From the NCBI RefSeq assembly GCF_041438805.1, contig NZ_CP109191.1:248001-312000 (forward strand): a stretch of DNA of 64,000 nt, written 5' to 3'. This document shows positions 1,394 to 34,205 of this stretch, in pieces; within the stretch, counting starts at the first letter, position 1, and each line of letters starts with the position of its first letter. The notes below the pieces were generated by a model that searched no databases, was not told the DNA's origin, and saw nothing but the letters and a program-made list of their open reading frames with translations. Made by a program: the position numbers and the translations under genes. Source of the stretch: Streptomyces sp. NBC_01707 (GTDB taxonomy: Bacteria > Actinomycetota > Actinomycetes > Streptomycetales > Streptomycetaceae).

Positions 1394-1403
1394 GAGGCAC
1401 CCA

Positions 1404-5214: not shown

Positions 5215-5224
5215 GGTTTCCCCG

Positions 5225-13100: not shown

Positions 13101-13520
13101 TCAGTCTCTGACAGCCTGAGGACTGCGGCGCTGATCCGATCCCGGCACTGGCTCGGACGAGTCGGCGCCCACTGCCACGATGCGGTTGTCACCGTCCACG
13201 TGTACGACCCGTGGGTTGAGCGTCCGGGCCTCATCATCAGCTACCTGAGCGTAGCTGATGATGATCACTAGGTCACCCGGCCTAATGAGGTGCGCGGCAG
13301 CACCGTTTATCCCGATGACGCCGGAACCGCGCTCGCCTTCGATGACGTATGTTTCCAGCCGCGCGCCGTTGGTGATGTCAACAATGTGGACGAGCTCGCC
13401 GGGCAGTAGATCGGCGGTATCGAGCAGGTCCGCATCTATAGTTACCGATCCCACGTAGTGCAGGTCAGCTTGAGTCACGGTGGCGCGATGAATCTTTGAC
13501 TTGAACATAGTTCGAAGCAT
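13101..13520 (-). CDS. panD: Aspartate 1-decarboxylase proenzyme
   Basis: A 139-residue protein that aligns from its first residue with the PanD family: [12 protein letters not shown], then LHYVGS with the Gly24-Ser25 bond that self-cleaves to make the pyruvoyl cofactor, then [17 protein letters not shown] and ING-A-A-H. The spacing to Gly24-Ser25 is exactly that of the family, which fixes the ATG at 13520. PanD converts L-aspartate to beta-alanine for pantothenate; no other pantothenate genes are nearby, so a second copy here may supply beta-alanine to the peptide system or raise phosphopantetheine supply. It stands alone between IS remnants. Confidence 0.92.
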
Positions 13521-13889
13521 GGAAAATCCCCAACCAGTCTGCTTCTTACCTGGTTTGTGCAGGACAAGTGCCAGCAGAGTACAGCGATTCATGTTCCGAT
13601 CGGCCGCCCCGATCCGTTCCAAACAGACGCACTGCTCCGCAACCAGTTCTGGGTGATGCCGGTACGCCATCCGGCCTGCATGCGATGAGTGGTGAGAGCA
13701 AAGACGAGAGGAGCCTGAGGTTGTTTGGTTCGGGGTTCGGGTGTCGTGCCAGTCGCGGTTGATTCTCAGGTCAGGCGTCGGCATACGATGCCGATCATTG
13801 CGACGTGGGTTATGGCTTCGGGCTTCGGCCCCCGCGCTGGCCTGCCTACGGCGGGCACCACCCTGCCGGTCATGGCGCCTTCCCTCACA

Positions 13890-14809: not shown

Positions 14810-16624
14810 ATGGCGGGCATCGCGGGATGGATCGACGGCGACCGTGATCTGACGGAGCAACACGTAGCGGTGGCCCGGATGGCGTCCGGACTCGTCGTGC
14901 GCGCCCGGCACGATGGCACCGACTGGACGGGACGGCGCGCCGCGCTCGTGCAGCGCACGGACCGGGCCTGGCGGGGGCCGACCGGGCCGGCCGCGGTCCA
15001 GGAAAACAGCCGCACGGTCGCCGTCGCGGTGTGCGACGGATACCTGCGTAACGCCGACAATCTGTGGAACGCGCTGGGTGGCGCCACCGGTCCGGGCTGC
15101 CCGCCGCCCTCGGCGTCCGAGGTGATCGTGCGCGCCTACCTGCGCTGGGGGAGTGAGCTGGCCGAGCGGCTGGAGGGACTGTATGCCTTCGCTGTCTGGG
15201 ACGAACGCTCCGGCGAACTTCTGCTCGGTCGCGACCGGATCGGCATCAAGCCGCTCAGCTACACCGTGACGGATGGCGGCGTCCTGTTCGCGTCGGACGT
15301 CGCCGTGCTGGCCGCGCATCCCTTGGTCACCCCGGAGGCGGACGCCGGCGCCTTGTGCGCCCTGCTCACCCTGATGCGCGAGGACAGCCGGGGCGCGCTG
15401 CGCGGTATCCGCGAAGTGCCTCCGGCCACGGTCCTGCGGTTCACCGGGCATACCGTTCGTGCCCACCGGTACTGGAGGCTGGAGGCGCACGAGCATGTGC
15501 TCGACGCGGAGGCGACAACGAGGGAGGCCGACCATCTGCTGCGCGCCTCCGTGGCTGCCGACATCGCTGGGCATGAACCGGCCGTACTCCTCTCAGGCGG
15601 CCTGGACTCCAGCGTGCTCGCGGGACTGGTCGCCACCGGCACTCAGCGCGCGCCCGTCACTGCCACAGTGGCCTTCGCCCGGTCTGCGTCCCGGATACCC
15701 GACCGCCCCTTTATCGAGGATGTTGTCCGCTTCTGGGACTGCGACCACGAGGATGTCCTCGTCGACGTTGACCAGGTTTGCGACCCGGTCACGTTGTCTG
15801 AGGTGCTCGCCGCCAAGGACTATCCCACTCCTTGGGGCGACAAGAACGTCACCCCGTACATGCTGAGTCGGTCTCTGTCGGCGCGCGCCTCTGTCGGCCT
15901 ATCGGGGGAGGCGGCGGACACCATGTTCGGCGGCCTCTACGGCGACCTGGACGGCGTACCCGAACTGACCACCTTTCCCTGGCTGGAGCAGGCCCGCCGG
16001 TTCGGCGTTGCACACGGCATCGGCACCGGACTGTTCGACCCTGACCTATTGCGCGTCCTGGACCTCGACGGATACCTGGAGCGCGTCTTTCAGGAGTCGG
16101 TTGCGCAGGTGCCCGTGCTACCGGGCGACTCACCGGGCCGCCGCACGGTACGGCAGATCGACTACCTGACAGTGACCCGGCTGCTCGAACAGACCATGCT
16201 GCATACCGAACGCCTTGGCGCGGCAGCCGGGATACAGATGCGCTTCCCCTTCGCTGACCCCGCGCTCTACTCGTTCATGTACAACGTGCCGGTCTCCATG
16301 AAGTTCACCGGGGGCCGCACCAAGAGCATTCTGCGTGACCTAGCGGCGGGCCTTGTTCCCCACTCGGTGCTAGAGCGTAAGAAATCCACTTTCCCTGCCC
16401 TTTACGACCCCCGCTACAAGGCGTCCGTCGTGTCCCGGCTGCGGGACCTGCTTGACGACTCGTCGGCACCCGTGCACGCCGTGACGGACCTGGGCGCCGC
16501 CGCTCGCGTCGTCGCCGACCCGGCACTGCTGGACCGGGGCGGCTGGTTCGGCCGTGCCGACGTCGAGATGCTCTTCCAGGTCGACGCGTGGTTGCGCCGC
16601 CACCAGGTACGGCTGCGGATCTGA
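14810..16624 (+). CDS. Asparagine synthetase/beta-lactam synthetase-like amide ligase lacking the glutaminase Cys
   Basis: A 604-residue two-domain protein. The N-terminal glutaminase-type domain begins MAGIAGWIDG, where functional AsnB enzymes begin with Met-Cys-Gly-Ile; the nucleophile Cys2 is Ala, so glutamine hydrolysis should be lost. The C-terminal ATP-pyrophosphatase domain keeps the PP-loop SGGLDSS (Ser262) and a GLSGEAADTMFGG segment in place of the usual SGEGADELFGG. The same loss of Cys2 is known in beta-lactam synthetase and carbapenam synthetase, which adenylate a carboxylate and let an internal amine attack. An amide-forming role with an amine other than ammonia is likely. First gene of an NRPS-like group; the carrier-containing gene follows at 86 bp. 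Confidence 0.85.
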   Translation: MAGIAGWIDGDRDLTEQHVAVARMASGLVVRARHDGTDWTGRRAALVQRTDRAWRGPTGPAAVQENSRTVAVAVCDGYLRNADNLWNALGGATGPGCPPPSASEVIVRAYLRWGSELAERLEGLYAFAVWDERSGELLLGRDRIGIKPLSYTVTDGGVLFASDVAVLAAHPLVTPEADAGALCALLTLMREDSRGALRGIREVPPATVLRFTGHTVRAHRYWRLEAHEHVLDAEATTREADHLLRASVAADIAGHEPAVLLSGGLDSSVLAGLVATGTQRAPVTATVAFARSASRIPDRPFIEDVVRFWDCDHEDVLVDVDQVCDPVTLSEVLAAKDYPTPWGDKNVTPYMLSRSLSARASVGLSGEAADTMFGGLYGDLDGVPELTTFPWLEQARRFGVAHGIGTGLFDPDLLRVLDLDGYLERVFQESVAQVPVLPGDSPGRRTVRQIDYLTVTRLLEQTMLHTERLGAAAGIQMRFPFADPALYSFMYNVPVSMKFTGGRTKSILRDLAAGLVPHSVLERKKSTFPALYDPRYKASVVSRLRDLLDDSSAPVHAVTDLGAAARVVADPALLDRGGWFGRADVEMLFQVDAWLRRHQVRLRI

Positions 16625-16710
16625 ACAGATCCACTTCCACCCGCGCCCCGGCCGCACCGGGGAACGCACCAAGACGAGACCACCACGCGCACAGCCCGGG
16701 AGAGGACTCC

Positions 16711-18294
16711 ATGACCAGCACCCCGCACAGCGTGCCCCTTTCAGTGGGGCAAGAGGCCATGAAGGTGGCCTGGCAACTCGATCCGCATGCCTGGACCAAC
16801 ATCATCCCGTTCCCGCTCGCCGTGCGTGGCACGCTCGACCTCGGCCGGCTGTCCGTCGCCGTCGGCGCCCTGGCCGCTGCCTTTCCCCATCTCCGTGGCC
16901 GGGTCACCGCCGACCCCGGAGGTAACCGCCTTGATTGGTCCGACGCCCCGCCGATCCCGCTCACTGAGATCACGACCGAGCTGGGCCGCGAGGAGGCAGT
17001 GCGGCACGCCTGGCAGGTGCCGTTCGACCTGCACACCGGCCCCCTGGCGCGAGTGCAGGTCATCACTGGCCCTGACTGGCAGGTGCTGCTGCTGTGCGTG
17101 CACCATCTCGTGAGCGATGGCGCGTCCATGCTGCTCCTGCTGGAGGCACTGCGCCAGGCCTACACCGGCGAGCCCGTCACCGTTCCGCACGACCCGTACG
17201 CACTGGAGGCCCACGCCTTGCGCTCTGCGCGGCTGTCGCAGACCGCGGACGGCGAGCGGCACCGGGCTTACTGGACGGCCGAACTCGGCACCGATGTACC
17301 CGATCTCCGGCTTCCCGCCGCCCCTGAAACGCCGCCTCGATACAGCATGGTGAGCGACCTACTGCCTGCCGACCTGGTCGCCGGGCTGCGCGCCCGTGCC
17401 GCGGCTTGCGGAGTTTCGTACGTCACCGCCCTGATGGCGGGCTACTACGCCCTGCTGCGGCGGCACAGCGGCGCGTCGGATGTCTTGTCATTCGTTCCCT
17501 TCCACGGCCGGACGTTGGAAGAGGCCCAGCAGCAGGTGGGGTACTTCGTCAACCTGCTACCCGTACGGGCCCGCATGGGTAGGTCGGACACCTACGTCGA
17601 TCTCATGCGACAGCTACGCGGCCGGGTCAAGAGCGCGCTCACCCATGGCGATCTCCCGCAGCCGACGATCATGCGGTGTGCGGGCATGGTCGGACCGCAG
17701 GCTCGAGAGTTGACGCACCGCAGCCTGTTCCAGTATTGGCACGCGGGCCTGCGCGACGGGCTTGACGTGATGGATCTGCGGCTGACCGTGCCCGGGTCAC
17801 AGGCCGTCTTGAGCCTGCTTGATATCGAGAGTACCGCGGGCTTCACCCTGGCTGTGATGGTCCGTCAGGACAGTGCGGGAACCCACGTGCTGTGGAAGGA
17901 CCCGGCCGGAGCACTGGGCGAATCCGTTCTCGCGACGCTGGCCGCCGACTACCACGAGGTGCTCTGGACGATCGCCGACGACCCCGACACCCCTCTCATC
18001 GAGACAGTCGGGACGCCCGACGTCCTCACGGCGGCCACCAACCCCGCGGCTGCGGGCACCACCGTCAACGCTGCCGCCCTGGCCGCGATGACCGAGGTGT
18101 GGGAGGACATCCTGGGAATCGACGGTATCGACCCAAAGGACAGCTTCTTCGAACTCGGAGGGCATTCGCTCCTTGCCGAGAGCCTCGTCATCGACGTCTC
18201 GCGCCGGTTCGGCCACGAGGTGGAGCTGCGCGCCCTGTTCACCTGGCCGCGCCTGGTGGAGTTCACCGAGCACGTCGTGGGACTGCTGGCGTGA
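16711..18294 (+). CDS. NRPS condensation-carrier didomain protein
   Basis: A 527-residue protein. Residues about 5-430 form a condensation domain with PLSVGQEAMKVAWQL at the N-terminal motif and the catalytic HHLVSDG near residue 130. After a short Ala/Thr linker, the last 75 residues are a carrier domain with DSFFELGGHSLLAESL, whose Ser takes the phosphopantetheine arm. No adenylation domain is fused, so a separate one must load it; the free-standing adenylation protein at 32.7-34.2 kb is the intact candidate. The ATG at 16711 has GGGAGAGGA upstream. The stop overlaps the GTG of the MFS gene. Confidence 0.9.
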   Translation: MTSTPHSVPLSVGQEAMKVAWQLDPHAWTNIIPFPLAVRGTLDLGRLSVAVGALAAAFPHLRGRVTADPGGNRLDWSDAPPIPLTEITTELGREEAVRHAWQVPFDLHTGPLARVQVITGPDWQVLLLCVHHLVSDGASMLLLLEALRQAYTGEPVTVPHDPYALEAHALRSARLSQTADGERHRAYWTAELGTDVPDLRLPAAPETPPRYSMVSDLLPADLVAGLRARAAACGVSYVTALMAGYYALLRRHSGASDVLSFVPFHGRTLEEAQQQVGYFVNLLPVRARMGRSDTYVDLMRQLRGRVKSALTHGDLPQPTIMRCAGMVGPQARELTHRSLFQYWHAGLRDGLDVMDLRLTVPGSQAVLSLLDIESTAGFTLAVMVRQDSAGTHVLWKDPAGALGESVLATLAADYHEVLWTIADDPDTPLIETVGTPDVLTAATNPAAAGTTVNAAALAAMTEVWEDILGIDGIDPKDSFFELGGHSLLAESLVIDVSRRFGHEVELRALFTWPRLVEFTEHVVGLLA

Positions 18295-19538
18295 CGCCTG
18301 GGACCGCGCCCTCGGACATCCGACACCACCCGGTCCTGCGGGCCCTGTTCGCCGCCGAGTTCGTGTCGGTGCTCGGCAGCTCCCTGACCATTGTCGCTAT
18401 TCCGTGGCTCATACTCACTGAGACCGGATCGGCCCGTGCCATGGGCGTGGTGATGGCGGCCCAGATGGCCGGGTCCGCCCTGCTCGGCACGTTGGGTGCC
18501 TCGTGGGCCGGACGCGCCGGGCCCCGCCGCACGATGCTGCTGGGTGACGCCTGCCGCGGCGTGCTGATCGCACTCGTCCCGCTGTTCACAGCCGCCGGTC
18601 CCCTTGCGGTGCCCCTCACCGCGGTCGCGATGTTCGTCATTGGCGGTCTCATCGCCCCCTATGCCGCCGCTCAGCAGGCGATGCTCCCCGGTATCGTCGG
18701 AGAGGAAGAGAGGCTGCTGAGCCGCGCCACCGCGGCCTTGCAGGGCACGATGCGGCTCAGCATGATGCTCGGCCCGCCCCTGGCAGGAGCGTTGGTCGGC
18801 CTGCTCGGCGCGACCCCAGTGGTCCTGGTGGACGCCGCGAGCTTTGCGGTGTCTCTCGTGCTGCTGCACCGCTGTCTGCCGAAAGAGGCCGCGACCGTGC
18901 CGCCGGCACGGCCGTCGCGCTTTGGTTCGGCGGGCGTGCGCACCTTGCTGGCCGACCCGCTGACGGCAACCTGGTCCCTGGCGCTGGTCTGCTCAGAGTT
19001 TGCCTGGCAGGGCCTGTTCGCGGCGATCCCCGTGGTGGCGCTGGAGTTCGGGGGCCGCGGAGCGACGGTGGCCGGCGTGCTGTCTGGTTCGTTCGCTGCC
19101 GCAGCCCTAACAGGGACCCTTCTGGTCGGACCTCTGCTGCGGCGGCTGCCCGCAGCGGTGCTCGCGGTGGGCGGGCGGCTGCTGCTCGCGCTGTCCTTCT
19201 TCGCGCTGCTGCTGCCGCTCGGCGTGACCGCCGTGCTGTGCTGTTTGGTGGTTGCCGGTCTCCTCAACGGCATATCAAGCGCACCGGTCTCGGCGGTGCG
19301 GGCGCTGCGCCTGCCGGCCAGCCTGCGCTCCGAAGCGCTTACCGTAGCCACAGCCGTCGCCCTGGCTGGCGGGACCTGCGGTCTGATCTTCAGCAGCTCC
19401 TCGATCCAGGCGACCGGCGCGCGGACCGTGTTCCTCGCTCTCGCCCTGGCCCAGGCCACGGCTGCCGTGCTGCACGTCGTCGGCCTGCTGGCCGCCCGCC
19501 GCCCGGTCGTCGTCCTGCGACAGGACACCGCCGGTTAG
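18291..19538 (+). CDS. MFS transporter
   Basis: A 415-residue membrane protein with the MFS pattern: FAAEFVSVLGSSLTIVAIPWLI as first segment and about eleven further Ala/Leu/Val-rich segments. The GTG start overlaps the stop of the condensation-carrier gene (GTGA), coupling export to synthesis. It is a different sequence from the exporter at 6292-7560, so the window holds two exporters for what may be two products or two steps. Confidence 0.85.
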   Translation: MTPGTAPSDIRHHPVLRALFAAEFVSVLGSSLTIVAIPWLILTETGSARAMGVVMAAQMAGSALLGTLGASWAGRAGPRRTMLLGDACRGVLIALVPLFTAAGPLAVPLTAVAMFVIGGLIAPYAAAQQAMLPGIVGEEERLLSRATAALQGTMRLSMMLGPPLAGALVGLLGATPVVLVDAASFAVSLVLLHRCLPKEAATVPPARPSRFGSAGVRTLLADPLTATWSLALVCSEFAWQGLFAAIPVVALEFGGRGATVAGVLSGSFAAAALTGTLLVGPLLRRLPAAVLAVGGRLLLALSFFALLLPLGVTAVLCCLVVAGLLNGISSAPVSAVRALRLPASLRSEALTVATAVALAGGTCGLIFSSSSIQATGARTVFLALALAQATAAVLHVVGLLAARRPVVVLRQDTAG

Positions 19539-19684
19539 CCGTGATATCGGCCCGTACCGAGACGTCGTCACGCGACCTGAAACGGTGCACACCGGAACGG
19601 GCCCGTTTGCGACCGGCCCCGCCACCCGAGCGGGTCCGTGCCGACCTCCGGTCCGCACGGACCCCCGATCTTCCAGGAGTTCCG

Positions 19685-20986
19685 TTGACAGCCACTCCCG
19701 CCGGAGCGCCGGCCGACGTCTGGCGCAGCGTCCCACACCGCATGAGCATCGGCCTGAACCATCAGCTGCGCGACGACGGCTCGCTGCCCTCGGAGAACCT
19801 GACGTGCTTCGTGTTCGCCTTCCCTGGCTTGACCGTGGATGTCCCCCGGCTGGAACGCGCGCTAGCCCGGGCGGTGACCGTCAACCCCGCACTCGCCCAC
19901 CGCTACCGAGTCGACCCGGACTACGGGCCGCAGTACCGAGAAGCGGACTGGCGGCCGACCGTCTACGTGGTCGAGACGACAGGTGCCGATGAGGAGGGGG
20001 TGTGGGCAGAAGCCCGCCGCGTCGCGGACGCGGAGATGCTCGCCCCCTTCGACCTACGCGACGGACGCCTGCTGCGGGTCGTTTGCGTGCGCGGTTCGAG
20101 CGGCGCGGGAACCGCCCTGGTGATCAAGGTTGACCACACCGTGTGCGACGGACTGTCATACGCCCAGTTGCTCGACGACCTCTCGGTAGCCTACGAGTGC
20201 AATGACGAGGCGGAGAACTTTGCCCCCACCCGGCGCCGTGCTTCCCTCGCCAGGGTCGCCGCCGCCGAGCGCCGCATCCTGGCGGGTGCCCAGCGGGATG
20301 AGCTGCGGGCGGCATGGCACGATCGGCTACCCGAAGGCGTCCCCGACATGGTGCTCGGCAAACCGACCCCCTGGCGCGCCTGCACGGCGGAGGGCGAGCA
20401 GGCCGCGGTCGTACTCACCGGAAGCGCGTACAAGCGGCATGCCCGGCAAGCCGCCGACCTGTCAGTTTCGAGCTTCATGCTCGCCACCGCGAAGCTCCTT
20501 CACGCGATGCGCCCAAGTGTGCTCGGACCGGACCTCAGCTTCTTCTCCCCGTTTCCCGGGCGATTCGTGCCCGCGGCCCGGGGCGTGCTCGGCAACTTCG
20601 TCAGCGTGCTTCCCGTCACCGTGGATGTCCCGCGCGTCGCCGGACTGCCCGCGACCGTCGAGGCGGTGCGCGAAGGCGTGCTGTGGACGATGCATCACCA
20701 GGGCATCCCCTTCGACGCGATCTTGGAAGCGGTGGGGAACGCCGATGCCACGAGCGGGGAATTCGCCTACCAACGCCGGTCGATCTTCTTCTCCGGCAAC
20801 CCAGTCATGCGACTCGAATTGGAGGGCATAAGAGGCGAGCTGAGCGTGCCGACTTTGACGGACGCGATGTTTGACCTCAGTCTGTGGATCTCCGACACGG
20901 GCAGCGAACTGCGGGTCAGCGGCATCTTCCGCAAGCAGCTCCTCGATCGCGCCCTCGTAGAGGCCTGGCTGGCTGCTCTGTGCTGA
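19685..20986 (+). CDS. Free-standing NRPS condensation domain
   Basis: A 433-residue single condensation domain. The catalytic motif reads DHTVCDG near residue 150, keeping the second His and DG of HHxxxDG with Asp in the first position. Later segments such as LGNFVSVLPVTVDVP fit the C-terminal half. TTG at 19685 is taken as start because AGGAG lies five bases before it; the next in-frame ATG (19743) lacks such a site. Free-standing condensation domains act in trans on a carrier-bound chain, releasing or extending it with a free amine or alcohol. It could join the chain on the upstream carrier domain to a soluble nucleophile such as diaminobutyrate or an aminoacyl nucleotide. Confidence 0.85.
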   Translation: MTATPAGAPADVWRSVPHRMSIGLNHQLRDDGSLPSENLTCFVFAFPGLTVDVPRLERALARAVTVNPALAHRYRVDPDYGPQYREADWRPTVYVVETTGADEEGVWAEARRVADAEMLAPFDLRDGRLLRVVCVRGSSGAGTALVIKVDHTVCDGLSYAQLLDDLSVAYECNDEAENFAPTRRRASLARVAAAERRILAGAQRDELRAAWHDRLPEGVPDMVLGKPTPWRACTAEGEQAAVVLTGSAYKRHARQAADLSVSSFMLATAKLLHAMRPSVLGPDLSFFSPFPGRFVPAARGVLGNFVSVLPVTVDVPRVAGLPATVEAVREGVLWTMHHQGIPFDAILEAVGNADATSGEFAYQRRSIFFSGNPVMRLELEGIRGELSVPTLTDAMFDLSLWISDTGSELRVSGIFRKQLLDRALVEAWLAALC

Positions 20987-21198
20987 GCCCCCGCACCTGG
21001 GCTCGCGTCGCCGCCGTCCCGATCGGGTTCTGCCCGGCTCTAGCCGCTTCAGGCGGACCGCAGAACGAACGGCAACGGAACCGGAATCACAGGCTGCGAA
21101 GCTGCGATCACTCGAACGGCCAACCCGGCGACGCCGGATGGCCATACGTGTCCCGGACCCGCCCGTGCTGGGCGTGCGTGCAATTGGAGGTTCATCAC

Positions 21199-22215
21199 GT
21201 GCTGAAAGTCGAACCGAGCCCACCGCAGCGGCCCTCTGAGGCTGACCTGCCCCGCTTCCTGAAGATCTTGGACGATCCCATGTACGCGTCCCTCGTCGAT
21301 CTTCAGGACCTGGTGAACTACGAGACGGCCGCATTCTGGCGGGCCCGCCGGGTCAAAGCGCTGCACCTGCCGGTGACCACGTCCTCGATCTCCTCGCCTA
21401 TGGGCCTCGGCAGCGACTCGCTGCCGGTACAGGTGGACCTGTTCGGCATCCCCACCTACCTTGCCGACTCGATGCAGTTCCTGCTGGAGTACGGCTGCCG
21501 TATCGCAGACACCGGCTGCTACTACCTGATGCCCAGTTTCCGGGGCGAGGAGACGGACGCCACCCACCTCAGCCAGTTCTTCCACAGCGAAGCTGAGATC
21601 CCCGGCGGCTTGGACGACGTCATCGACGTTGCCGACGCCTACCTGCGTCATCTCACGGAGGCGGTCCTGCGCGAGCTGGAGGCCCCGGTCGCTCAGATCG
21701 CCGGCGGCGTCGAGCACCTCACCGACTTCCTGGCCAAGCCCACCACCCGCATGACGTTCGACGATGCCGTGGCCACCCTCGACGGCTCCGACGAGTACTT
21801 CGAGTTCCACGACGGGTGGCGCACCATCACCCGGGCGGGCGAACGCCGACTGATGGAACTGCACGGTCCGGCCGTTTGGCTGACCCACTTCGACCAACTG
21901 TCTGTGCCGTTCTACCAGGCCCACGACAACACCGGTCTCAAGGCCCTCAACGCCGACCTGCTGATCGGCCCGGGTGAGGTCATCGGCTGCGGCGAGCGCC
22001 ACACCGAGGCCGCCCAGGCCCACAACGCCCTCACCGCGCACGGCGTCAGCCCAGACGACTACGACTGGTACCTGCGCATGAAGAAGGACAAGCCTCTGCA
22101 CACCAGCGGCTTCGGGATGGGCGTCGAGCGCTTCTTCATGTGGGTGCTCCGCCACGACGACGTACGCGACCTGCAACTCCTGGAGCGCGCCAACGGCGTG
22201 CTCACCACCCCTTGA
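21199..22215 (+). CDS. AsnRS-like enzyme without anticodon-binding domain
   Basis: A 338-residue class II aminoacyl-tRNA-synthetase catalytic core of the Asp/Asn type. Motif 2 is seen as FRGEE followed by FHSEAE, and motif 3 as GFGMGVERF. The N-terminal OB-fold of about 100 residues that binds the anticodon is absent, as in the archaeal asparagine synthetases related to AsnRS, which form aspartyl-AMP and transfer it to ammonia. A biosynthetic adenylate-forming role is therefore more likely than tRNA charging; a drug-tolerant target copy would be expected to keep the OB-fold. GTG at 21199 has GGAGG eight bases upstream. First gene of the operon running to 29320. Confidence 0.85.
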   Translation: MLKVEPSPPQRPSEADLPRFLKILDDPMYASLVDLQDLVNYETAAFWRARRVKALHLPVTTSSISSPMGLGSDSLPVQVDLFGIPTYLADSMQFLLEYGCRIADTGCYYLMPSFRGEETDATHLSQFFHSEAEIPGGLDDVIDVADAYLRHLTEAVLRELEAPVAQIAGGVEHLTDFLAKPTTRMTFDDAVATLDGSDEYFEFHDGWRTITRAGERRLMELHGPAVWLTHFDQLSVPFYQAHDNTGLKALNADLLIGPGEVIGCGERHTEAAQAHNALTAHGVSPDDYDWYLRMKKDKPLHTSGFGMGVERFFMWVLRHDDVRDLQLLERANGVLTTP

Positions 22216-22292
22216 CCCTCACCACCCCCTGACCCTCGCCACCGTCGCCGGCCCGGCGGCACCGCAACTCGTCCACCAAGGAGAAAACCTTC

Positions 22293-23138
22293 ATGAATCT
22301 TGGCGACCTGACCGCTCAGCAGATCCGCTCCATGAACTACAACGAACTGATCTCCGTCGTGCGGGAGACCAACCGGCCGCCCGGTGGCGTCAGGACCATC
22401 TCGAACCTCGCCGCCCGTGCCCATCTCGGCAAGGACAGCCACGTCCTGGAAATCGGAACCAGCACCGGCATCACGGCCATTGAGCTGGCCCGGCTGGTGG
22501 GCTGCCGCGTCACGGCGATCGACATCAACGAGCGCAGTATCGCCGAGGCCCGCCGCCGTGCCGAGAGCCTCGGTGTGGCGCACCTCATCACCTTCGAGGT
22601 CAACGACGCCACTGCGACGGGCTACCCCGACGACACCTTCGACATGGTCTTCTGCGGCAATGTGACCTCCCTCATCCCCGACCGCGCGCAGGCACTTGCC
22701 GAGTACTCCCGAGTGGTCAAGCCTGGAGGCTTCATCGCAGCAATCCCGATGTATTACGTGAAGCAGCCCTCCGAGCAGCTGCTCGCGGACGTCACCGCAG
22801 CGATCCAGGTGACGGTCGAGCCACTCGAGGAGGCCTACTGGCTGGACTTCTTCCTCGGCGATGGCCGCGTCCCGTTCACCCAGGAGCAGTACACCTTCGA
22901 CTGGATCTCCGACGAGGTAGTGGACTCTTTCGTCCGCGACATCCTCGCCCGACCGCACCTTGACGAGCTGTCGGCCGAGGCTCGTGAGGCTCTGGTGGAG
23001 CAGTACGCGGTCTACATGCGCCTGTTCCGCGACAACCTCTCCGAGATGGGCTACACCGAGCTGCTGGTGCGCTGCGAGGTTGACGAGCTGGGCGAGCCCG
23101 AGCTCTTCACTGCCAGCCCGGTACTCCCGCGTTCTTGA
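22293..23138 (+). CDS. Class I SAM-dependent methyltransferase
   Basis: A 281-residue Rossmann-fold methyltransferase. The SAM-binding motif I is VLEIGTSTGITAIE (about residue 50), followed by an acidic end of strand 2 (VTAIDIN) and motif IV DMVFCGNVTSLIPD. The nearest familiar families are small-molecule O- and C-methyltransferases. ATG at 22293 follows AAGGAG. Placed between the AsnRS-like and molybdenum-hydroxylase genes, it probably methylates the product or an intermediate; in a phosmidosine-like pathway the phosphoramidate methyl ester is the obvious target, but this is inference. Confidence 0.85.
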   Translation: MNLGDLTAQQIRSMNYNELISVVRETNRPPGGVRTISNLAARAHLGKDSHVLEIGTSTGITAIELARLVGCRVTAIDINERSIAEARRRAESLGVAHLITFEVNDATATGYPDDTFDMVFCGNVTSLIPDRAQALAEYSRVVKPGGFIAAIPMYYVKQPSEQLLADVTAAIQVTVEPLEEAYWLDFFLGDGRVPFTQEQYTFDWISDEVVDSFVRDILARPHLDELSAEAREALVEQYAVYMRLFRDNLSEMGYTELLVRCEVDELGEPELFTASPVLPRS

Positions 23139-23230
23139 CGCCCTCAGTCGGCACCGGACTTCCCTCCGTCCGGTGCCGGCCCGCCCGCCGTCGAGAGCGG
23201 GAACGCCCGTCCCGAAAGAGGCAACCGTCC

Positions 23231-24121
23231 GTGAAGCTTCCTCCGTTCGTCCACGTGGCGCCGAGCCGCCTCGGCGACGCGGTGGCCCACCTTGCCGAGG
23301 CCGCACCACGCGAGGCCCTGCCACTGGCGGGCGGCCAGAGCCTGATCCCGCTGATGGCGTCCCGGGCCCGCACCCCGCGCGTCCTCGTGGACCTTTGCGA
23401 CCTGCGGGAACTGACCGGCGTGACAGAACGGGACGACTGCCTCGTGGCGGGCGCCATGACCCGCCAACACGCGCTGGCCGCGGACCCCCGGATTCAGGAC
23501 ATGGTTCCCCTTGTTGCCGACGCCGCCGCCTACACCGGACACGCCTCGGTACGGCACCGTGGCACCCTCGGCGGCACGCTCTCCCTTGCCGCACCTGCCG
23601 CGCAACTGATCACCGCCGCTCACGCTCTCGACGCCCGGCTCCTCCTCACCGGCCCTGGTGGGGACCGTGAATGCGCCCTGCGGACTTGGCTGCGCGGCCC
23701 GTACACCACAGGACTGCGGCACGGCGAACTCCTCACCGCCGTGGCCCTACCCCTGCGTAGGACAGGCAGCGGGCACGCCCTACGGCAGATGGTCCACCCG
23801 GCTGGCGGGCGGCCTGTCGCCTGTGTCGCCGCGATCGTGGATACCGCCCCGGACGGCACCGTACGGCGGGCCGAACTCACGGTTAGCACAAGGGTGTCCA
23901 CGCCTTCTTCGGTCGACGTGACTGCCCGGCTTGCCGAGGCATCCGACTCTGCCGAGGCGACCGTTCCGGCCGACGTCGAGCAGGAGCGCGGGGCACCTCC
24001 GGCGACGTACTGCCGCCGCGCGGTACGCGTCCTGGCCGATCAGGCGCTGACCGAGGCGATCACCAGGGCACGCCGTCCGGACCCCAGGGCACTGCTCATC
24101 CCGAGGTGGGAGACACCATGA
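23231..24121 (+). CDS. FAD-binding subunit of a xanthine-dehydrogenase-family molybdenum hydroxylase
   Basis: A 296-residue CoxM/XdhB-type flavoprotein. It shows LPLAGGQSLIPLM (about residue 30), the FAD-pyrophosphate loop of this family, and the second FAD segment RHRGTLGGTLSLA near residue 115. It passes electrons from the Fe-S/Mo subunit to the final acceptor. GTG at 23231 follows AGAGG. The stop overlaps the start of the large subunit (ATGA), which fits a stoichiometric complex. Confidence 0.88.
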   Translation: MKLPPFVHVAPSRLGDAVAHLAEAAPREALPLAGGQSLIPLMASRARTPRVLVDLCDLRELTGVTERDDCLVAGAMTRQHALAADPRIQDMVPLVADAAAYTGHASVRHRGTLGGTLSLAAPAAQLITAAHALDARLLLTGPGGDRECALRTWLRGPYTTGLRHGELLTAVALPLRRTGSGHALRQMVHPAGGRPVACVAAIVDTAPDGTVRRAELTVSTRVSTPSSVDVTARLAEASDSAEATVPADVEQERGAPPATYCRRAVRVLADQALTEAITRARRPDPRALLIPRWETP

Positions 24122-27009
24122 CCTCCGAACCTACCCTCAGCGCTGAGTCGCGCGCAGGCCGGACACACCGGTCGAACTGCCGCACTCTGGCCGACCACCT
24201 GCGTGGCTGCCTCGGCCGCAAGTCGGTCCGGTTGGGCTGCGAGGACGGCGTCTGCGGCTCCTGCACCGTCGTCCTGGACGGCCGTACTGCCCGCTCGTGC
24301 ACCATCCTCGCCCCGCAGGCAGAGGGACTCACAGTCCACACTGCAGAGGACACCGGAGACGCGCTGATGCGGCACCTGCGCGAGGTGCTGTGGGCTGAGC
24401 ACGCCTTCCAGTGCGGATTCTGTGCCGCGGGCTTCCTTATGGAGATTCACGCCCTGCTCAGCGAAAACCTCAACGCGACCGAGGAGGAGATCCGGCGGAG
24501 ACTGGCGGGCAATCTGTGCCGCTGCACCGGGTACGAGAGCATCGTCCGGGCGACGCTCACCGCCGCACAGACATACGCGCCGGGCCCGGCCTCCGACGGA
24601 CACCCGGCCGCCGAAGCCACCGCGCTCCAAGACGCTGCCCCGGCGCATCCCGCCACCATTGATCCCCGAGTCGGCACCAGCGCGCTGCGCGAGGAGGACC
24701 GTACCGTCCTCAACGGCACAGCACGCTATATCGCCGACCTCGACGTCCCCGGCACCCTGCACGCGCGTTTTGTGCGCAGCACCCGGCCGCATGCCCGGAT
24801 AACCGGCATCGACACCACCTCCGCCCGCTCCGTCCCCGGCGTCGTCGCCGTGATCACGGCCGCCGACATGCGCGACACCCACCATCCGATCGTCGTGGCC
24901 TGCCCACTTGAGGGCTACATGCCTCCGGCCTTCACCCCACTCGCCGCCGACCGGGTGCGCTTCGAGGGGGATCCGGTCGCCCTCGTCGTCGCCGACGACC
25001 CCTGTGTGGCCGAGGAAGCCGCCGAGCTCATCGGCATCGAGTACGACGACCTGCCCCCCGTGCTGGACGCCCGCGCTTCCGCCAGCGGCGCGTACCCACC
25101 GCTCTTCGCCGACCTGGACGGCAACGTCCTCTACCGCGAGCATCGCACCCATGGAGACGTGGAGCAGGCGTTCTCCCGGGCTACCCGGGTGGTACGGCAC
25201 CGCTTGAGCCAGGAGCGCGTGCAGAATGCGCCCCTCGAACCCCGCGGCGGCCTCGCCGCCTACGACCCGCGCAGCGGACGGCTGACCTACGACGTGGCGT
25301 CCCAGTCTCCGAACTCGCACCGTGCCTTCCTGTCGCAGGTGCTCGGACTGGACCCGGAACAGGTCCGGGTGCGGGTCCCGGCCAACATGGGCGGCTCGTT
25401 CGGCATCAAAGGAGGCGTATTTCGCGAGGACGTGGCTGTGTGCTGGGCAAGCATGCGTCTGCGCCGTCCGGTGCGCTGGATTGAGGACCGCCGCGAGCAC
25501 CTAACTGCGGCCGGACAGGCCCGCGGCGAGGAGATCGACATCGAGGTGGCGCTTGGCCCGGATGGCGGTCTGCTGGCGCTGCGCGCGGACCTCGTCGTCG
25601 ACCAGGGTGCCTACCCTGTCCCCCCGATAGCCAGCGCCGTCTTCGTCGCCATTGTTCGTTGCCTGATCCCCAACTGCTACCGCGTGCCGGCCTACGAGTT
25701 CACCGGCCGCCTGGTCCTCACCAACCGCACCCCGTACGTCGCCTACCGTGGCCCCTGGGAGATGGCCACCTTCGCCGCGGAACGCACCATGGATCTAGTC
25801 GCCCGCGCCTTGAACGAGGAGCCCGTCGACTACCGGCTGCGCCACCTGGCTCCGGTCGACGGACCGGACCCGCGCATGATCACCGGTGCCCGCCTGGTCG
25901 ATGTGCCCGAACTAGGCTGGACCCTGGGCCGCGCCCGGCGTGAGGCGGCCCTGGAGGAGTTCAGGGACCGGCAGGAACGGGCGCGGGCTGAGGGCCGCCT
26001 GCTTGGTCTCGGCATCACCTCTCTGCTGGAACCTGCGCCCGGCCCGTGGAGCCTGCACGAGGCAATGGGCGCCCACATGGGGCCGGAACCCGTCCGACTA
26101 CTGTTCACCCCGGCAGGCCGGCTGGAGGTCAGAACCGGACAGATCCCGCACGGCCAGGGCCACGTCACCACGCTCGCGCAGATCGCCGCGGACACTCTGG
26201 GTTTGCCGCTGGACGCCGTCGACGTCATCTTCGGCGACACCGCGGCCGTCCCCTACAGCCTGGCCGGGACCGGAGCCAGCCGCGCCGCTGCCCTCGCGGG
26301 TGGGGGAGTGCTGCGTGCCGCGCGCACCCTGCGCCACCGCCTGCTCGCTGCTGCGGCGGCCCGCAGCGGACACCGTGTCGACGAGCTGGACGTTGCCGCC
26401 GGACACGTAGTCACGGCCCGCGACGGCCGTACCCTGTGCTCGCTCACTGCTCTGGCCGCCGAGTACGCCGCCACACCGCAGGGACGGACCCGACTGGACG
26501 TGTCCCAGGTGTTCGACAGCGAAGAAACCGGTTGGGCAGAAGCCACCCACTGCTGCTGGGTGGAAGTCGACGCGGACCTCGGCACGGTCGCCGTACTCCG
26601 CTACCTGATTGTGGCGGACAGCGGACGCATCATCAACCCGGCCGTCGCGGATGGCCAGTTGCGCGGCGGGGTCGTCCAGGGCATCGGCACGGTGCTGCAC
26701 GAGAGGTCTGGTTACGGCCTCGACGGCAGACAGCTCTCCCGCGACCTCACCGAGTACCTCCTACCCACCTCGCTCAGCGCTCCGGCCATCGACATTCTCC
26801 ACCTGGAGTCGCAGCGCCCAGGCGACGTTCCCTTCCGCGGACTCGGTGAGGGTGGCGCCGTGCTGGCCCCCGCCGCTGTGGTCGGTGCGGTCGAGGACGC
26901 GCTCGCCCATCTGGGCGTCCGTCTCACCGAACGTCACCTGCCGCCCTGGCGGGTGCTGGAGATGCTGGCGGCCCAGCGCATCCCGACAGCTGCACCGGAG
27001 TACCGATGA
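24118..27009 (+). CDS. Molybdenum hydroxylase, fused [2Fe-2S] and molybdopterin subunits
   Basis: A 963-residue fusion. Residues about 1-160 are the small iron-sulfur subunit: a plant-type cluster site CEDGVCGSC with a following Cys, and a second cluster site from QCGFCAAG and LCRCTGY. After a linker, residues about 185-963 are the large subunit with GGSFG, AYRGPWEM and the catalytic Glu in GLGEGG. The AYRGPWE loop lacks the AYRCSFR Cys of form I carbon monoxide dehydrogenase, so this is a hydroxylase of small heterocycles or aldehydes. Purine C8 or C2 oxidation is typical of the superfamily. The XdhC-type protein at 7936 probably matures it. Start and stop overlap both neighbours. Confidence 0.9.
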   Translation: MTSEPTLSAESRAGRTHRSNCRTLADHLRGCLGRKSVRLGCEDGVCGSCTVVLDGRTARSCTILAPQAEGLTVHTAEDTGDALMRHLREVLWAEHAFQCGFCAAGFLMEIHALLSENLNATEEEIRRRLAGNLCRCTGYESIVRATLTAAQTYAPGPASDGHPAAEATALQDAAPAHPATIDPRVGTSALREEDRTVLNGTARYIADLDVPGTLHARFVRSTRPHARITGIDTTSARSVPGVVAVITAADMRDTHHPIVVACPLEGYMPPAFTPLAADRVRFEGDPVALVVADDPCVAEEAAELIGIEYDDLPPVLDARASASGAYPPLFADLDGNVLYREHRTHGDVEQAFSRATRVVRHRLSQERVQNAPLEPRGGLAAYDPRSGRLTYDVASQSPNSHRAFLSQVLGLDPEQVRVRVPANMGGSFGIKGGVFREDVAVCWASMRLRRPVRWIEDRREHLTAAGQARGEEIDIEVALGPDGGLLALRADLVVDQGAYPVPPIASAVFVAIVRCLIPNCYRVPAYEFTGRLVLTNRTPYVAYRGPWEMATFAAERTMDLVARALNEEPVDYRLRHLAPVDGPDPRMITGARLVDVPELGWTLGRARREAALEEFRDRQERARAEGRLLGLGITSLLEPAPGPWSLHEAMGAHMGPEPVRLLFTPAGRLEVRTGQIPHGQGHVTTLAQIAADTLGLPLDAVDVIFGDTAAVPYSLAGTGASRAAALAGGGVLRAARTLRHRLLAAAAARSGHRVDELDVAAGHVVTARDGRTLCSLTALAAEYAATPQGRTRLDVSQVFDSEETGWAEATHCCWVEVDADLGTVAVLRYLIVADSGRIINPAVADGQLRGGVVQGIGTVLHERSGYGLDGRQLSRDLTEYLLPTSLSAPAIDILHLESQRPGDVPFRGLGEGGAVLAPAAVVGAVEDALAHLGVRLTERHLPPWRVLEMLAAQRIPTAAPEYR

Positions 27010-28247
27010 AACTGAGCAAGATTCCGCACGGTGAACAACTGGGCGGCCCCTTCCCTGATCCGCATACTGACGCCGACCTGCCGCACCACCTCGGCCTCAC
27101 CCGCTTCACCGACGCTGGCTTCCCCTGGTTTTCCCCGGTCGGCCAACGCCTGATCACCCGTATCCAGGGAATCGTGCGCGACGAGATGGAACGCGTCGGC
27201 TACACAGAGTTCCGCGGACCGGCCATCAGCCGAGTGGACACCGTGGCGCCAGCCGGCTGGCTGGAAAGGTTCGGTGACGAACTCATCGACTTCGCCCCGC
27301 CGTTCGACCAATACACCCTAGCCGCCACCAGCGAGGAACCGCTGCTGGCGTACCTCGGCTCCGCCGGCCTGACTTCCCACCGGCAGTTGCCAATGCGTCT
27401 GTTCGAGTTCCGGGAGATCTTCCGCTTCCGGGACCGGCCGCAGGGCATCTACAACTCCCGGCAGTTCCAGTGCTGTCTGTTTGCCAGCCTGGACGCCGAC
27501 CACGCCGGATACCTGCGCAGCGCGGCCCACGCCCAACGCACCGTCCGCGCGGTCCTGAAACGGCTGCACCTGCGTGCTGAACTTGTCAGCGACGCATCGA
27601 CCGGCGGCTTCGAGTTCATCTTCCCCTATGCCCGCGGCGACCGGCCGCGTAGCCGCACCATCCCCTACCACCGAGACCCCTCGCGCCCCACCACCGCGGA
27701 GGACGACGTCCCGCAGGGCGGCATCGCGATGGGCTACGGCTATGCCCACGTGTCCTCCTTCGACGTCCGCTTCCGCGATGCGGACAATCAATTGCGCACC
27801 CCGGTCATGGGAACCTACGGCCTGGGCGTCCAGCGGTGCGTCCTCGCGCTGCTGGAGCAGCACCGCACCCCAAACGGAGTCGCGCTGCCCGCCGCCGTAC
27901 GCCCCTTCGACGTACTGGTCACAGCACAGGGCAGAAGTCCCGCCGCTACCGAGGCAGCCGAGTGCATCTACGACGACCTGGTCGCGGGAGGCCTCAGCGT
28001 CGTCCTCGACGACCGCCATGGTGCCTCCATGGGCAGGCGCATGCGATTCGCGGACCAGGTCGGCGTGCCCTGGCGCGTGGTGATCAACTCCGCAGGGACC
28101 GTGGGATTGCGTGCCGCGCGCGGCTCGGACGAACCCGAACGCGAACTGACCAGCACCGCCCTGCTGGAATACATGATCCTGCGCGGCCACGAGGAGTGGG
28201 CGGACCTGCAGTCCTTCCCCGTCGAGACAACAGGAGCAAGCCAATGA
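27006..28247 (+). CDS. ProRS-like class II synthetase paralogue
   Basis: A 413-residue prolyl-tRNA-synthetase relative. Class II motifs are visible: REIFRFRD followed by GIYNSRQFQ (motif 2) and GTYGLGVQR (motif 3), and the C-terminal part (RPFDVLVTAQGR onward) resembles the HGTP anticodon domain. It is 70-150 residues shorter than housekeeping ProRS and has almost no room for the bacterial editing insertion. Within this operon it may form prolyl-adenylate for transfer to an acceptor, or be a resistant ProRS copy that tolerates a prolyl-AMP mimic. Starts and stops overlap both neighbours by four bases. Confidence 0.85.
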   Translation: MKLSKIPHGEQLGGPFPDPHTDADLPHHLGLTRFTDAGFPWFSPVGQRLITRIQGIVRDEMERVGYTEFRGPAISRVDTVAPAGWLERFGDELIDFAPPFDQYTLAATSEEPLLAYLGSAGLTSHRQLPMRLFEFREIFRFRDRPQGIYNSRQFQCCLFASLDADHAGYLRSAAHAQRTVRAVLKRLHLRAELVSDASTGGFEFIFPYARGDRPRSRTIPYHRDPSRPTTAEDDVPQGGIAMGYGYAHVSSFDVRFRDADNQLRTPVMGTYGLGVQRCVLALLEQHRTPNGVALPAAVRPFDVLVTAQGRSPAATEAAECIYDDLVAGGLSVVLDDRHGASMGRRMRFADQVGVPWRVVINSAGTVGLRAARGSDEPERELTSTALLEYMILRGHEEWADLQSFPVETTGASQ

Positions 28248-29320
28248 CCGCACCGAGCGCGACCACCACGGCAGATCCGAAGCACGCCGACCGGGCCCGT
28301 TGGCCCGCGCTGCTGCCCGCGAACGCCACCCTGGGCGTGTGGGCACCGAGCAGTCCGGCACCCGTGCTCTTTCCCCGCCGTTTCGCGCGCGGTCTCGCGT
28401 CACTGCGTGAGCGCGGGTACACCGTGGTCGTGGGGGAGTCCTGCCGTGCCGCGCAGGGAGCAGGCACCCTGCCGCCGCAGGCGCTCGCCGAGGAACTGCA
28501 TGGCCTGCTGGAGGAGACCGCAGGTGTGATTGCGGCCGTCGGCGGGTGGACACTGACCCCTGTCCTCCCGTACTTGGACTTTGACCGCATCGGCCGGGCC
28601 GGCAAGCCACTGATCGGGTACAGCGATCTGACGTCCCTGGTGAACCTGGTGCCCCGGCGTTCCGGGCTGGTCGCCTTTCACGGCCCGATGGTCGTCTCGG
28701 AATGGGGCGAGTGCGCTGGCCCTTGGGAGCTGACGGCGGCTGAGTTCGACCAGGTGCTGGGTCGGGACCACTCCTGGATCGAGCGGCAGGTGGGCACGGC
28801 GGGACAGGCGGAACAGTGGTCGGACGAGAATCTCTTCTGGGACCGCGACGACGATCGCCGCAGGCAGGGAAACAGCGGTGAGCAGCCGCCGCGGACCCTG
28901 CGGACCGGAGAGGCGACGGGACCCCTGTGGGGTGGCTCCTTGCTGGTGCTGGGCTTGTTGCTCGGAACGGACCTGTGGCCCGATCCGGCCCCCGGCTCGA
29001 TCGTCTTCCTGGAGGCCGACGGTCTACCCCCGGACGAACTTTGGGCACGACTGGAGCAGTTCCGGCTGGCCGGGGTCTTCGACCGCGCCGACGGTGTGAT
29101 CATGGGTAAGATTAGCAACCCTCGAGCGACACCTTTCGGCTACACCGGTTACGACGACGTCCTGCGCCGTACGCTGCCGTCTTCGATCCCCGTCGCCGCG
29201 GGCTTCGACCTGGGCCACGCGGACCCGATGTCCACCCTGCCAGTTGGCGGCCGGGCACGTCTGACCTGCCGGGACACGGCCACACCGACACTGAGCCTGC
29301 TGCGTGAACCGTCCCAGTGA
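28244..29320 (+). CDS. S66-family serine carboxypeptidase, MccF-like immunity protein
   Basis: A 358-residue LD-carboxypeptidase/MccF-family enzyme. The nucleophile is in IGYSDLTSL (Ser127), the acid in FLEADG (Glu257) and the base in GFDLGHADP (His325). The Glu-His spacing of 68 residues equals that of microcin C immunity protein MccF as I recall it (Glu243, His311). MccF cleaves the amide between an aminoacyl group and a nucleotide phosphoramidate or sulfamate, inactivating aminoacyl-AMP mimics. As the last gene of an operon with two tRNA-synthetase paralogues, a self-protection role against an aminoacyl-nucleotide product is likely. A role in cell-wall recycling is the alternative. Confidence 0.87.
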   Translation: MTAPSATTTADPKHADRARWPALLPANATLGVWAPSSPAPVLFPRRFARGLASLRERGYTVVVGESCRAAQGAGTLPPQALAEELHGLLEETAGVIAAVGGWTLTPVLPYLDFDRIGRAGKPLIGYSDLTSLVNLVPRRSGLVAFHGPMVVSEWGECAGPWELTAAEFDQVLGRDHSWIERQVGTAGQAEQWSDENLFWDRDDDRRRQGNSGEQPPRTLRTGEATGPLWGGSLLVLGLLLGTDLWPDPAPGSIVFLEADGLPPDELWARLEQFRLAGVFDRADGVIMGKISNPRATPFGYTGYDDVLRRTLPSSIPVAAGFDLGHADPMSTLPVGGRARLTCRDTATPTLSLLREPSQ

Positions 29321-32280: not shown

Positions 32281-32690
32281 GAGGACTTCACCTTCCTCTA
32301 CTTCGGCGACGCCCAGAACGACCCGTCGTCGAGGTGGGCCCCCGGTGGTGAAGCAGGCGTACGGGCGCCCCCCCGACGCGGTCGGCAGCGTCAACGCCAG
32401 CATCGGTGACGGCCGTTCGATGGCGGCCCCCGCCGTGGCTTTCCGCATGCAGCCAGGACCCTCCGGACCCGGAGAAGCTGTGGCTGGAGATGCAGAGCCG
32501 CTGGCTCGACGAGATCCTCGAAAGCGACCCCAACAATGGGGCCGTCGCAGTGTTCCACCAGCCCGTCTTCTCGGCCGCCGCCGGCCGTGACGAGAAGCCG
32601 GTCCGCGATGCGTGGCTGCCGGCCTTGCAGCGCAATGACATCGACCTTCCGGTGTGCCGAGTACGGGCATGGCCCGTCCGTGACCCCTCA
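32281..32690 (+). pseudogene. Metallophosphoesterase remnant
   Basis: Two pieces in different frames resemble purple-acid-phosphatase-like enzymes: FTFLYFGDAQNDPSSRW (metal-binding GD) near 32290 and LDEILESDPNNGAVAVFHQP with FSAAAGRDEKPVRDAW near 32505-32610. The expected GHDH end is lost by frameshift just before the adenylation gene on the opposite strand. It is a truncated, inactive copy. Confidence 0.5.
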
Positions 32691-34205
32691 CCCGCCTGCG
32701 GCCGGAACCTCAAATCGGCCCGCCCGGTGTTCGCGGGCGATCTCCTCCAGCCGGGTCCGGTCCAGCTTGCCGCTGAGCGTGAGGGGCATCCCGGACAGCT
32801 CAAGGAACTTGACCGGCACCATGTGCGCGGGCAGGAACGCGGCCAACTTCCCGGGCAGCTGTCCCGCCACGTCCGAGCCGCCGTCCGTATCCCGGGGCAC
32901 GAAGCAGGCCACCAGCATGGGTTCGCCCCGCCGACTCGGCACCATCACCACTGCACCAGCCACAACCCCGGCACACTGCTGGAGGCGGCTCTCGATCTCG
33001 CCCAGCTCCACGCGCATCCCGCGCACCTTGACCTGACGGTCAACCCGGCCTAGGTAGCGCAGCGTGCCGTCGCCTTTCCGGACAGCGAGGTCCCCGGTCT
33101 TATACCACACGGAGCCGTTGGCGCTACGCAAGAACACCCGTGAGGTCAGATCGGGACGGCCGAGATAGCCCTCTGCGATACCGCGGGCGAGGTGGATTTC
33201 CCCGATCTCCCCATCAGGCACGGCTTGTCCGTCCGCGAAGAGTTCCACGTCGACATGCGGGAGGGCGGTGCCGATGGGCGTGCCCGGCGCGTCGTGCTGT
33301 GCCAGCACCCGCGGGGTGAGTTCCTGGCATGTCGCGTACACCGTGCCCTCGGTCGGCCCGTACAGGTTGTGGTAGCGAGCCTTCGGGGACAACCCCAGCG
33401 CCGACCAGCGCGCCACCATCGCTGGCTCCACTGGCTCACCCGCCAGCAGCACCCGGCGCAGGTCGGGAAAGGCCGCGCCGGTTCGCTCGGCGGCGTCGAG
33501 TAGGTAGCGGAAGACGGTGGGGACCTGGCTGAGGACTGTGGCGCCCTCCTCTGTCAGTAGGGAGGCTAGGCGCCGTGGATCGCGCAGCGCGGACTCCGGC
33601 ACCGCCAGCAGACGGGCGCCAGTGACTAGCGGAGCCCAGGACTCCGCCAGGCTCACGTCGAAGCAGGGGGAGGTGGATTGCGCCCAGGCCTCGTCGGGGC
33701 CGAGCTCGAAGGTCGCCACAAACCCCTTGAGGAAGGCGGCTAGGCTGGCGTGGGACACCACGACCCCCTTGGGTCGGCCCGTCGAGCCCGACGTGTGAAT
33801 AACGTAGGCGGTGCCAGCCGGTACCTCGGGGGCGGCGGTCTGTACCGCCGATGACGTGTTCAGGATGAACCCGCCATCGTCCGTAGCCGTCACCACGGCC
33901 CGCACGCCTGCGTCGGCGAGCACAAAGTCTTGGCGGGCCTGCGGGTAGGAAGGGTCCACCGGAACGTATCCGCAGCCGTGCTGCCAGATGCCCAGCACGG
34001 CCGCGTAGGTGCGCCAGCCGCGCGGCATGCGCACCCCCACGAGCCCCCCGGGCTCGATGCGCGCTCCCTCCAGCAGGCGCCGGACGTGCTCAGCGCCCGC
34101 TCCGAGGCCGTCATAGGTGACGACACGCCCAGGCTCGGTCACCGCGATTCTTCCGGGATGGTCGGCAATGATCTTCCCGACCCAGGAATGTACACGGTCA
34201 TCCAT
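32688..34205 (-). CDS. Free-standing NRPS adenylation enzyme
   Basis: A 505-residue single adenylation domain with intact core motifs: AYVIHTSGSTGRPKGVVVSH (A3), NLYGPTEGT (A5), WYKTGDLA (A7), LGRVDRQVKVRGMRVELGEI (A8) and PLTLSGKLD with the A10 Lys. No carrier domain follows. It probably loads an amino acid on the carrier domain at 16.7-18.3 kb in trans. My hand alignment of the binding pocket gives D-V-A-S-L-A-L-V-Y, which I cannot assign. ATG at 34205 is preferred (GAGGGG upstream); a GTG at 34253 would extend it by 16 residues. A 227-bp repeat shared with the RiPP operon lies immediately upstream. Confidence 0.9.
   Translation of the reverse strand: MDDRVHSWVGKIIADHPGRIAVTEPGRVVTYDGLGAGAEHVRRLLEGARIEPGGLVGVRMPRGWRTYAAVLGIWQHGCGYVPVDPSYPQARQDFVLADAGVRAVVTATDDGGFILNTSSAVQTAAPEVPAGTAYVIHTSGSTGRPKGVVVSHASLAAFLKGFVATFELGPDEAWAQSTSPCFDVSLAESWAPLVTGARLLAVPESALRDPRRLASLLTEEGATVLSQVPTVFRYLLDAAERTGAAFPDLRRVLLAGEPVEPAMVARWSALGLSPKARYHNLYGPTEGTVYATCQELTPRVLAQHDAPGTPIGTALPHVDVELFADGQAVPDGEIGEIHLARGIAEGYLGRPDLTSRVFLRSANGSVWYKTGDLAVRKGDGTLRYLGRVDRQVKVRGMRVELGEIESRLQQCAGVVAGAVVMVPSRRGEPMLVACFVPRDTDGGSDVAGQLPGKLAAFLPAHMVPVKFLELSGMPLTLSGKLDRTRLEEIAREHRAGRFEVPAAGG

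Follow-up and report, generated by a model that had tools for sequence, protein, structure and literature searches.

In Streptomyces sp. NBC_01707, a run of plus-strand genes at about 14810–29320 of a 64,000-nucleotide stretch (the window; positions 248001–312000 of a 312,363-base contig, in a genome of 9.9 Mb) appears to be a biosynthetic cluster of the agrocin 84 (AgnA) kind. Its genes suggest a prolyl-linked, purine-oxidised adenosine phosphoramidate that would mimic prolyl-adenylate, a reading to which we give a probability of about 0.55. To our knowledge, the making of phosphorus–nitrogen (P–N) bonds in bacteria is poorly understood outside microcin C. Phosphoramidate nucleotide antibiotics are few, according to one account (PMC6429109). 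An initial annotation had placed here a six-gene operon (21199–29320) for an aminoacyl-nucleotide antibiotic of the phosmidosine type. All six genes are found, in the same order and on the plus strand, and the idea of a nucleotide antibiotic with an N-acyl phosphoramidate gains genomic support from three genes with agn homologues, agnA among them.

The first of these genes (21178–22215, alternative start 21199) encodes an AgnA-like asparaginyl-tRNA synthetase (AsnRS) core, the proposed P–N bond-forming enzyme, which is 43% identical to agnA of agrocin 84. It has no anticodon-binding domain, as the annotation had it: Pfam gives class II catalytic-core families only (PF00152, and PF01409 weakly). 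Next to it lies an S-adenosylmethionine-dependent methyltransferase assigned with Pfam (22293–23138), 45% identical to Arad_15003, the neighbour of agnA, and the unit closes with an S66 peptidase (28244–29320) that is 33% identical to AgnC5. This putative immunity protein was rightly called MccF-like, its best PDB relatives being MccF structures (E 7e-34). Its GYSD, Glu, HADPM and WSDE stretches align with those of MccF, and we take these to be the Ser, Glu and His triad and the Trp loop on the nucleotide side. The likeness to the microcin C system has a limit, in that no ThiF domain was reported among the 37 window frames scanned with Pfam. In agrocin 84 biosynthesis, agnA is described as a truncated AsnRS (PMC4392301). 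The agn operon of pAgK84 also carries a complete leucyl-tRNA synthetase (LeuRS), AgnB2, and other genes of its own, whereas the window has a short protein resembling prolyl-tRNA synthetase (ProRS), a molybdenum hydroxylase and parts resembling non-ribosomal peptide synthetases (NRPS).

The borders first given proved too narrow: conservation extends upstream to about 14810, and the unit runs from an asparagine-synthase-like gene through the S66 gene. It is syntenic in Streptomyces sp. PsTaAH-137, of the same genus (a single 233,304-base contig, entered as L027, L046 and G059), at 63–91% identity. The upstream part comprises an asparagine-synthase-like ATP-dependent amide ligase (14810–16624; PF00733/PF13537; 76% identical to its orthologue), a condensation (C) domain joined to a peptidyl carrier protein (C-PCP; 16711–18294; PF00668, PF00550; 74%), an MFS exporter (18291–19538; PF07690; 73%) and a stand-alone condensation-like protein (19742–20986; PF00668; 72%). 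Downstream, identity is 83% for the AgnA-like protein, 91% for the methyltransferase, 63% and 77% for the FAD and molybdenum subunits of the hydroxylase, 74% for the ProRS-like protein and 76% for the S66 peptidase. The four-base overlaps said to couple the last four genes hold at the junctions of the ProRS-like gene with the molybdenum subunit and with the S66 gene. Between the FAD and molybdenum subunits, the overlap is 4 bases with an ATG start at 24118 and 16 bases with a GTG start at 24106, while a four-base overlap of the methyltransferase and FAD genes needs a TTG start at 23135, the GTG start at 23231 leaving a gap. Open reading frames were called mechanically, and some of them are over-extended.

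The ProRS-like protein (sProRS; 27006–28247) is the proposed prolyl transferase. Among PDB structures it best matches 2i4l, a short ProRS, and it is indeed short, because the INS domain of long bacterial ProRS is lacking; the earlier description needs correcting in that an anticodon-binding domain is matched by Pfam, and the ProRS fold is predicted to be kept. It retains 39 of 75 positions that are near-invariant in ordinary ProRS (29 of 57 catalytic, 10 of 18 anticodon), so that 36 are lost, and by its residues it would not pass for a canonical prolyl-tRNA synthetase. Among 14 short members, R140, R144, R450 and the DDR motif are kept in 13 or 14. The short proteins of L006 and L103, two loci from the survey of AgnA relatives described below, depart further, with STPEP in place of TSEE; they were included in the alignment and left out of the 14-member counts. 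We read sProRS as a probable prolyl transferase like AcmF of ascamycin, and not as an immunity enzyme. AcmF and SbzA are synthetase-like enzymes that N-aminoacylate a sulfamate or a sulfonamide from aminoacyl-tRNA, according to two sources (PMC12945691, PMC6331615); the first, a review, contains neither the word agrocin nor the word phosphoramidate. The likeness to the acm and SB-203208 systems lies in the proposed N-aminoacylation of an adenylate mimic by a synthetase-like enzyme, and the difference in the acceptor (sulfamate or sulfonamide versus phosphoramidate) and in the parent synthetase (AlaRS or IleRS versus ProRS). The use of synthetase paralogues as small-molecule enzymes, which the initial annotation had thought new or little described, thus has genomic support but is not wholly new, since agnA, AcmF and SbzA are in print.

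Alternatively, the ProRS-like enzyme may itself activate proline with ATP, the prolyl activation that the initial annotation had supposed, and then pass the prolyl group on to ammonia, an amide or the C-PCP carrier protein. T109, E111, E112, R140 and R450 in 14 of 14 short members, and F155 in 13, are kept as this would require, their roles presumably being the binding of ATP and proline, and a carrier protein is encoded at 16711–18294. Amino acid:carrier protein ligases related to seryl-tRNA synthetase are also in print (PMC9437257). However, E154, K158, D159, the glycine loop (G200, G203, G204) and E410 are each lost in 13 or 14 of the 14, the anticodon domain is kept although a tRNA-independent enzyme would have no need of it, and no carrier protein was found among nine frames of locus L060 scanned with Pfam. 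Because so many conserved residues of the catalytic domain are lost, simple prolyl activation seems less likely than transfer from Pro-tRNA, and we hold it to be a distinctly minor alternative, perhaps one chance in a few. A miscoding system like that of ProRSx, described in the same source (PMC9437257), was set aside: the window has no tRNA gene, and sProRS is no plain ProRS duplicate. The gene was found in 2 of 392 Streptomyces genomes and 1 of 391 genomes of the order and, together with P0012, in 1 of 394 of the family, in draws that overlap and that each contain the window's own genome; a search of plasmids gave no match.

The purine-oxidised part of the proposal rests on the hydroxylase, which consists of a FAD subunit (23231–24121, possible TTG start 23135; PF00941) and a fused Fe-S/molybdopterin subunit (24106–27009, possible ATG start 24118; PF01799, PF01315, PF02738, PF20256). 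The Fe-S, FAD and molybdenum domains of the xanthine oxidase family are all present, and the molybdenum subunit keeps an AYRG motif and the Glu of GLGE, which we take to be the catalytic residue. A search with the hydroxylase (E 1e-180) listed nine sequences at 64% identity or more, its own among them (eight others), the next being at 40%. Three of these orthologues sit on Streptomyces contigs equal in size to contigs carrying sProRS relatives (233,304, 194,846 and 116,965 bases); pairing through equal-sized contigs, used here for the hydroxylase, the amide ligase and sProRS, is an indirect measure of co-occurrence, and the matches listed are not exhaustive. The co-occurrence of the hydroxylase clade with the ProRS-like gene lends genomic support to the initial annotation and would fit an oxidised purine. 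L060 was considered as a minimal phosmidosine cluster and not counted for 8-oxidation, its three-subunit molybdenum hydroxylase being only 30% identical, with an opposite-strand frame intervening. An XdhC-type maturation factor for molybdenum hydroxylases is encoded at 7936–9081 on the minus strand, with no match listed in L027.

Is the product phosmidosine itself? Phosmidosine has proline, phosphoramidate, methyl and 8-oxo groups, and would need neither an amide ligase nor C and PCP proteins. The window offers a candidate gene for each of these groups, as had been matched from the outset, and it differs in having the amide-ligase and C/PCP genes besides. For the cluster to make phosmidosine, these upstream genes would have to belong to another pathway or play a minor part, which we think improbable. 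A weak point in favour is a 116,965-base Streptomyces longwoodensis contig that, by size and name, pairs sProRS and hydroxylase relatives and on which none of the 57 amide-ligase matches listed lies; this absence says little, because the same list omits PsTaAH-137 despite its amide-ligase gene. Against it, PsTaAH-137 has the amide ligase, C-PCP, MFS and C genes in synteny with the remainder of the unit, so that biosynthetic parts surplus to phosmidosine are built into the unit, and amide-ligase orthologues pair with sProRS relatives on contigs of 45,764, 49,481 and 194,846 bases. Since the NRPS-like genes belong to the conserved unit, phosmidosine itself is doubtful, and the product is best read as a prolyl phosphoramidate nucleotide. 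The glutaminase cysteine of such ligases is Cys2. The N-terminus of the window's amide ligase is MAGIAGW, with Ala at that place, and AGIAGW is also found in the L046 orthologue; the lack of this cysteine and the presence of the C and C-PCP proteins imply that the product carries an added part.

It is also improbable that sProRS serves self-immunity as a resistant copy of ProRS. Extra synthetases are common beside AgnA, and agnB2 confers self-immunity in the agrocin 84 system, as stated in PMC4392301. By this analogy an immunity role was considered first, and it was downgraded after the residue analysis, with 36 of the 75 near-invariant positions lost, and after such a protein was found together with an ordinary extra ProRS in each of two distant loci, L060 and L093. 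These pairs resemble AcmF of the ascamycin cluster with its further synthetase copy AcmD. That the AgnA-like enzyme makes an amide (a step like that of asparagine synthetase A) for a peptide product without a nucleotide is just as improbable, given that the enzyme shares 43% identity with agnA and is linked to an MccF-like peptidase gene.

The wider distribution of AgnA was surveyed by a scan of genome contigs for two motifs, from which the 80 best of 125 relatives were retained; part of the motif conservation in L046–L125 therefore follows from the design of the scan, and the counts are biased in favour of relatives close to the window. With 6 plasmid loci and 10 from further genomes, and after 9 duplicates were dropped, 96 non-duplicate loci were counted, several of them short contigs. 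An S66 gene is present in 64, a homologue of the methyltransferase family in 41 (both in 37) and a synthetase homologue, of varied type, in 44. Of the 64 loci with S66, 42 have the nearest such gene no more than 3 kb from AgnA, and in 54 it shares the strand of AgnA. A set of 22 Escherichia coli synthetase references matched 42 of the 96 loci (35 with at least 60% of the reference covered), against 14 for 22 other E. coli genes, a contrast that is flattered in that some control genes may be missing from many of the organisms concerned. HisRS neighbours would have escaped notice, because the reference for this enzyme was incomplete and mistranslated. In a test for spare copies, which covered the Met, Leu, Thr and Pro types but none of Ala, Gly, Phe, Glu, Cys, Lys and Asn, a further synthetase copy lies outside the locus in 17 of the 19 genomes tested. 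For MetRS, a copy above the cut-off lies outside the locus in 8 of 9 genomes (L114 being the exception; the locus copy of L111 falls below the cut-off, and that of L077 is at the locus edge). The same holds for LeuRS in 3 of 3, for ThrRS in 2 of 3 (the only complete ThrRS of L102 being in the locus) and for ProRS in 4 of 4, where each genome whose AgnA locus includes an ordinary ProRS has a separate family-I ProRS elsewhere. AgnA may define a large cluster family across many bacterial phyla, making P–N aminoacyl-adenylate mimics from one common nucleotide substrate, with amino acid and target exchanged by swapping the linked synthetase-derived transferase and the extra resistant synthetase, and the window would be its prolyl, purine-oxidised branch; we hold this wider view tentatively, at slightly less than even odds. 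Eight loci (L004, L043, L044, L108, L109, L115, L120 and L121) have AgnA-like genes with C-domain-type neighbours and without S66, methyltransferase or synthetase partners, and perhaps form a second kind of AgnA cluster. On a Pantoea agglomerans plasmid (L003, 9389–10984), an AgnA-like domain is found inside a 531-amino-acid protein annotated as a GNAT acetyltransferase.

A number of observations weigh against the reading of the window as a prolyl phosphoramidate cluster. The product itself is a prediction, drawn from gene content, synteny, agn homology, the residues that are kept or lost, the folds predicted and the counts of co-occurrence. A hydroxylase of the window's type is matched in only 2 of the 96 loci, L046 and L060, and that of L060, at 30% identity, has an opposite-strand frame between it and the ProRS gene; none was found in the DNA examined of four further loci that have a frame for a short ProRS-like protein (L006, L093, L102 and L103), which for L093 is 8.5 kb only. 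None of the S66, methyltransferase and synthetase partners is present in 19 of the 96. A complete immunity synthetase of the target type is absent from the window, which has only the diverged short ProRS-like gene, and one clear other ProRS is found in the genome, on another contig. The methyltransferase predicted for a P-O-methyl ester is present, but this role is unspecific and uncertain, because the same family adjoins agnA, and agrocin 84 is not known to have such an ester. The amide ligase and NRPS-like genes do not fit plain phosmidosine. No locus titled Streptomyces durhamensis, the phosmidosine producer sought, is among the 80 named loci (best of 125), though its genome may not be covered or may lack the motifs used in the scan. 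The literature searched, outside which most subscription journals lie, yielded neither a phosmidosine gene cluster nor a survey of the AgnA family, which is no proof of novelty.

Should the prolyl phosphoramidate reading hold, the AgnA-like enzyme would make the P–N bond on an adenine nucleotide, as its kinship with agnA suggests, and sProRS would place a prolyl group on the phosphoramidate nitrogen, most likely from Pro-tRNA, much as AcmF and SbzA act on sulfamate and sulfonamide nitrogens. Oxidation of the purine, with C8 the probable site, would fall to the molybdenum hydroxylase. The methyltransferase may mask a group, possibly P-O. The asparagine-synthase-like ligase, with the C and C-PCP proteins, would add a further acyl or aminoacyl part. 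The MFS protein would export the product, and the MccF-like peptidase, judged by homology, would hydrolyse the prolyl-phosphoramidate amide for self-immunity.

Other genes nearby were kept outside the core. A P450 gene (29634–30887), a SARP regulator, XdhC and an aspartate decarboxylase PanD (13101–13784, minus strand, beside the cluster) have no match listed in the 20 kb of L027, and for an adenylation (A) domain (32688–34205) the L027 match is only 35% identical. At 464–6295 there is a run of GHMP kinase, PALP enzyme, ATP-grasp ligase, argininosuccinate-lyase-like and beta-eliminating-lyase (threonine-aldolase-like) genes, with an MFS gene at 6412, perhaps a separate pathway to an unusual amino acid or dipeptide. 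A ThcOx/nitroreductase-like gene adjoining a YcaO gene (51307–54265, minus strand) suggests an azoline/azole locus for a ribosomally synthesised and post-translationally modified peptide. The window lies close to the end of its 312-kb contig, which is separate from the 9.58-Mb contig (C1) of the same genome and is possibly a linear plasmid.

If the proposal is right, the cluster would be a route to a prolyl-adenylate mimic, in which synthetase paralogues are put to use as modular enzymes that transfer aminoacyl groups to a nitrogen bound to phosphorus. If the wider view of the AgnA family is true, the aminoacyl group and the target enzyme of each cluster could be predicted from its synthetase type, and the joint presence of AgnA, an MccF-like peptidase and a spare synthetase would indicate dozens of antibiotics with predicted targets.

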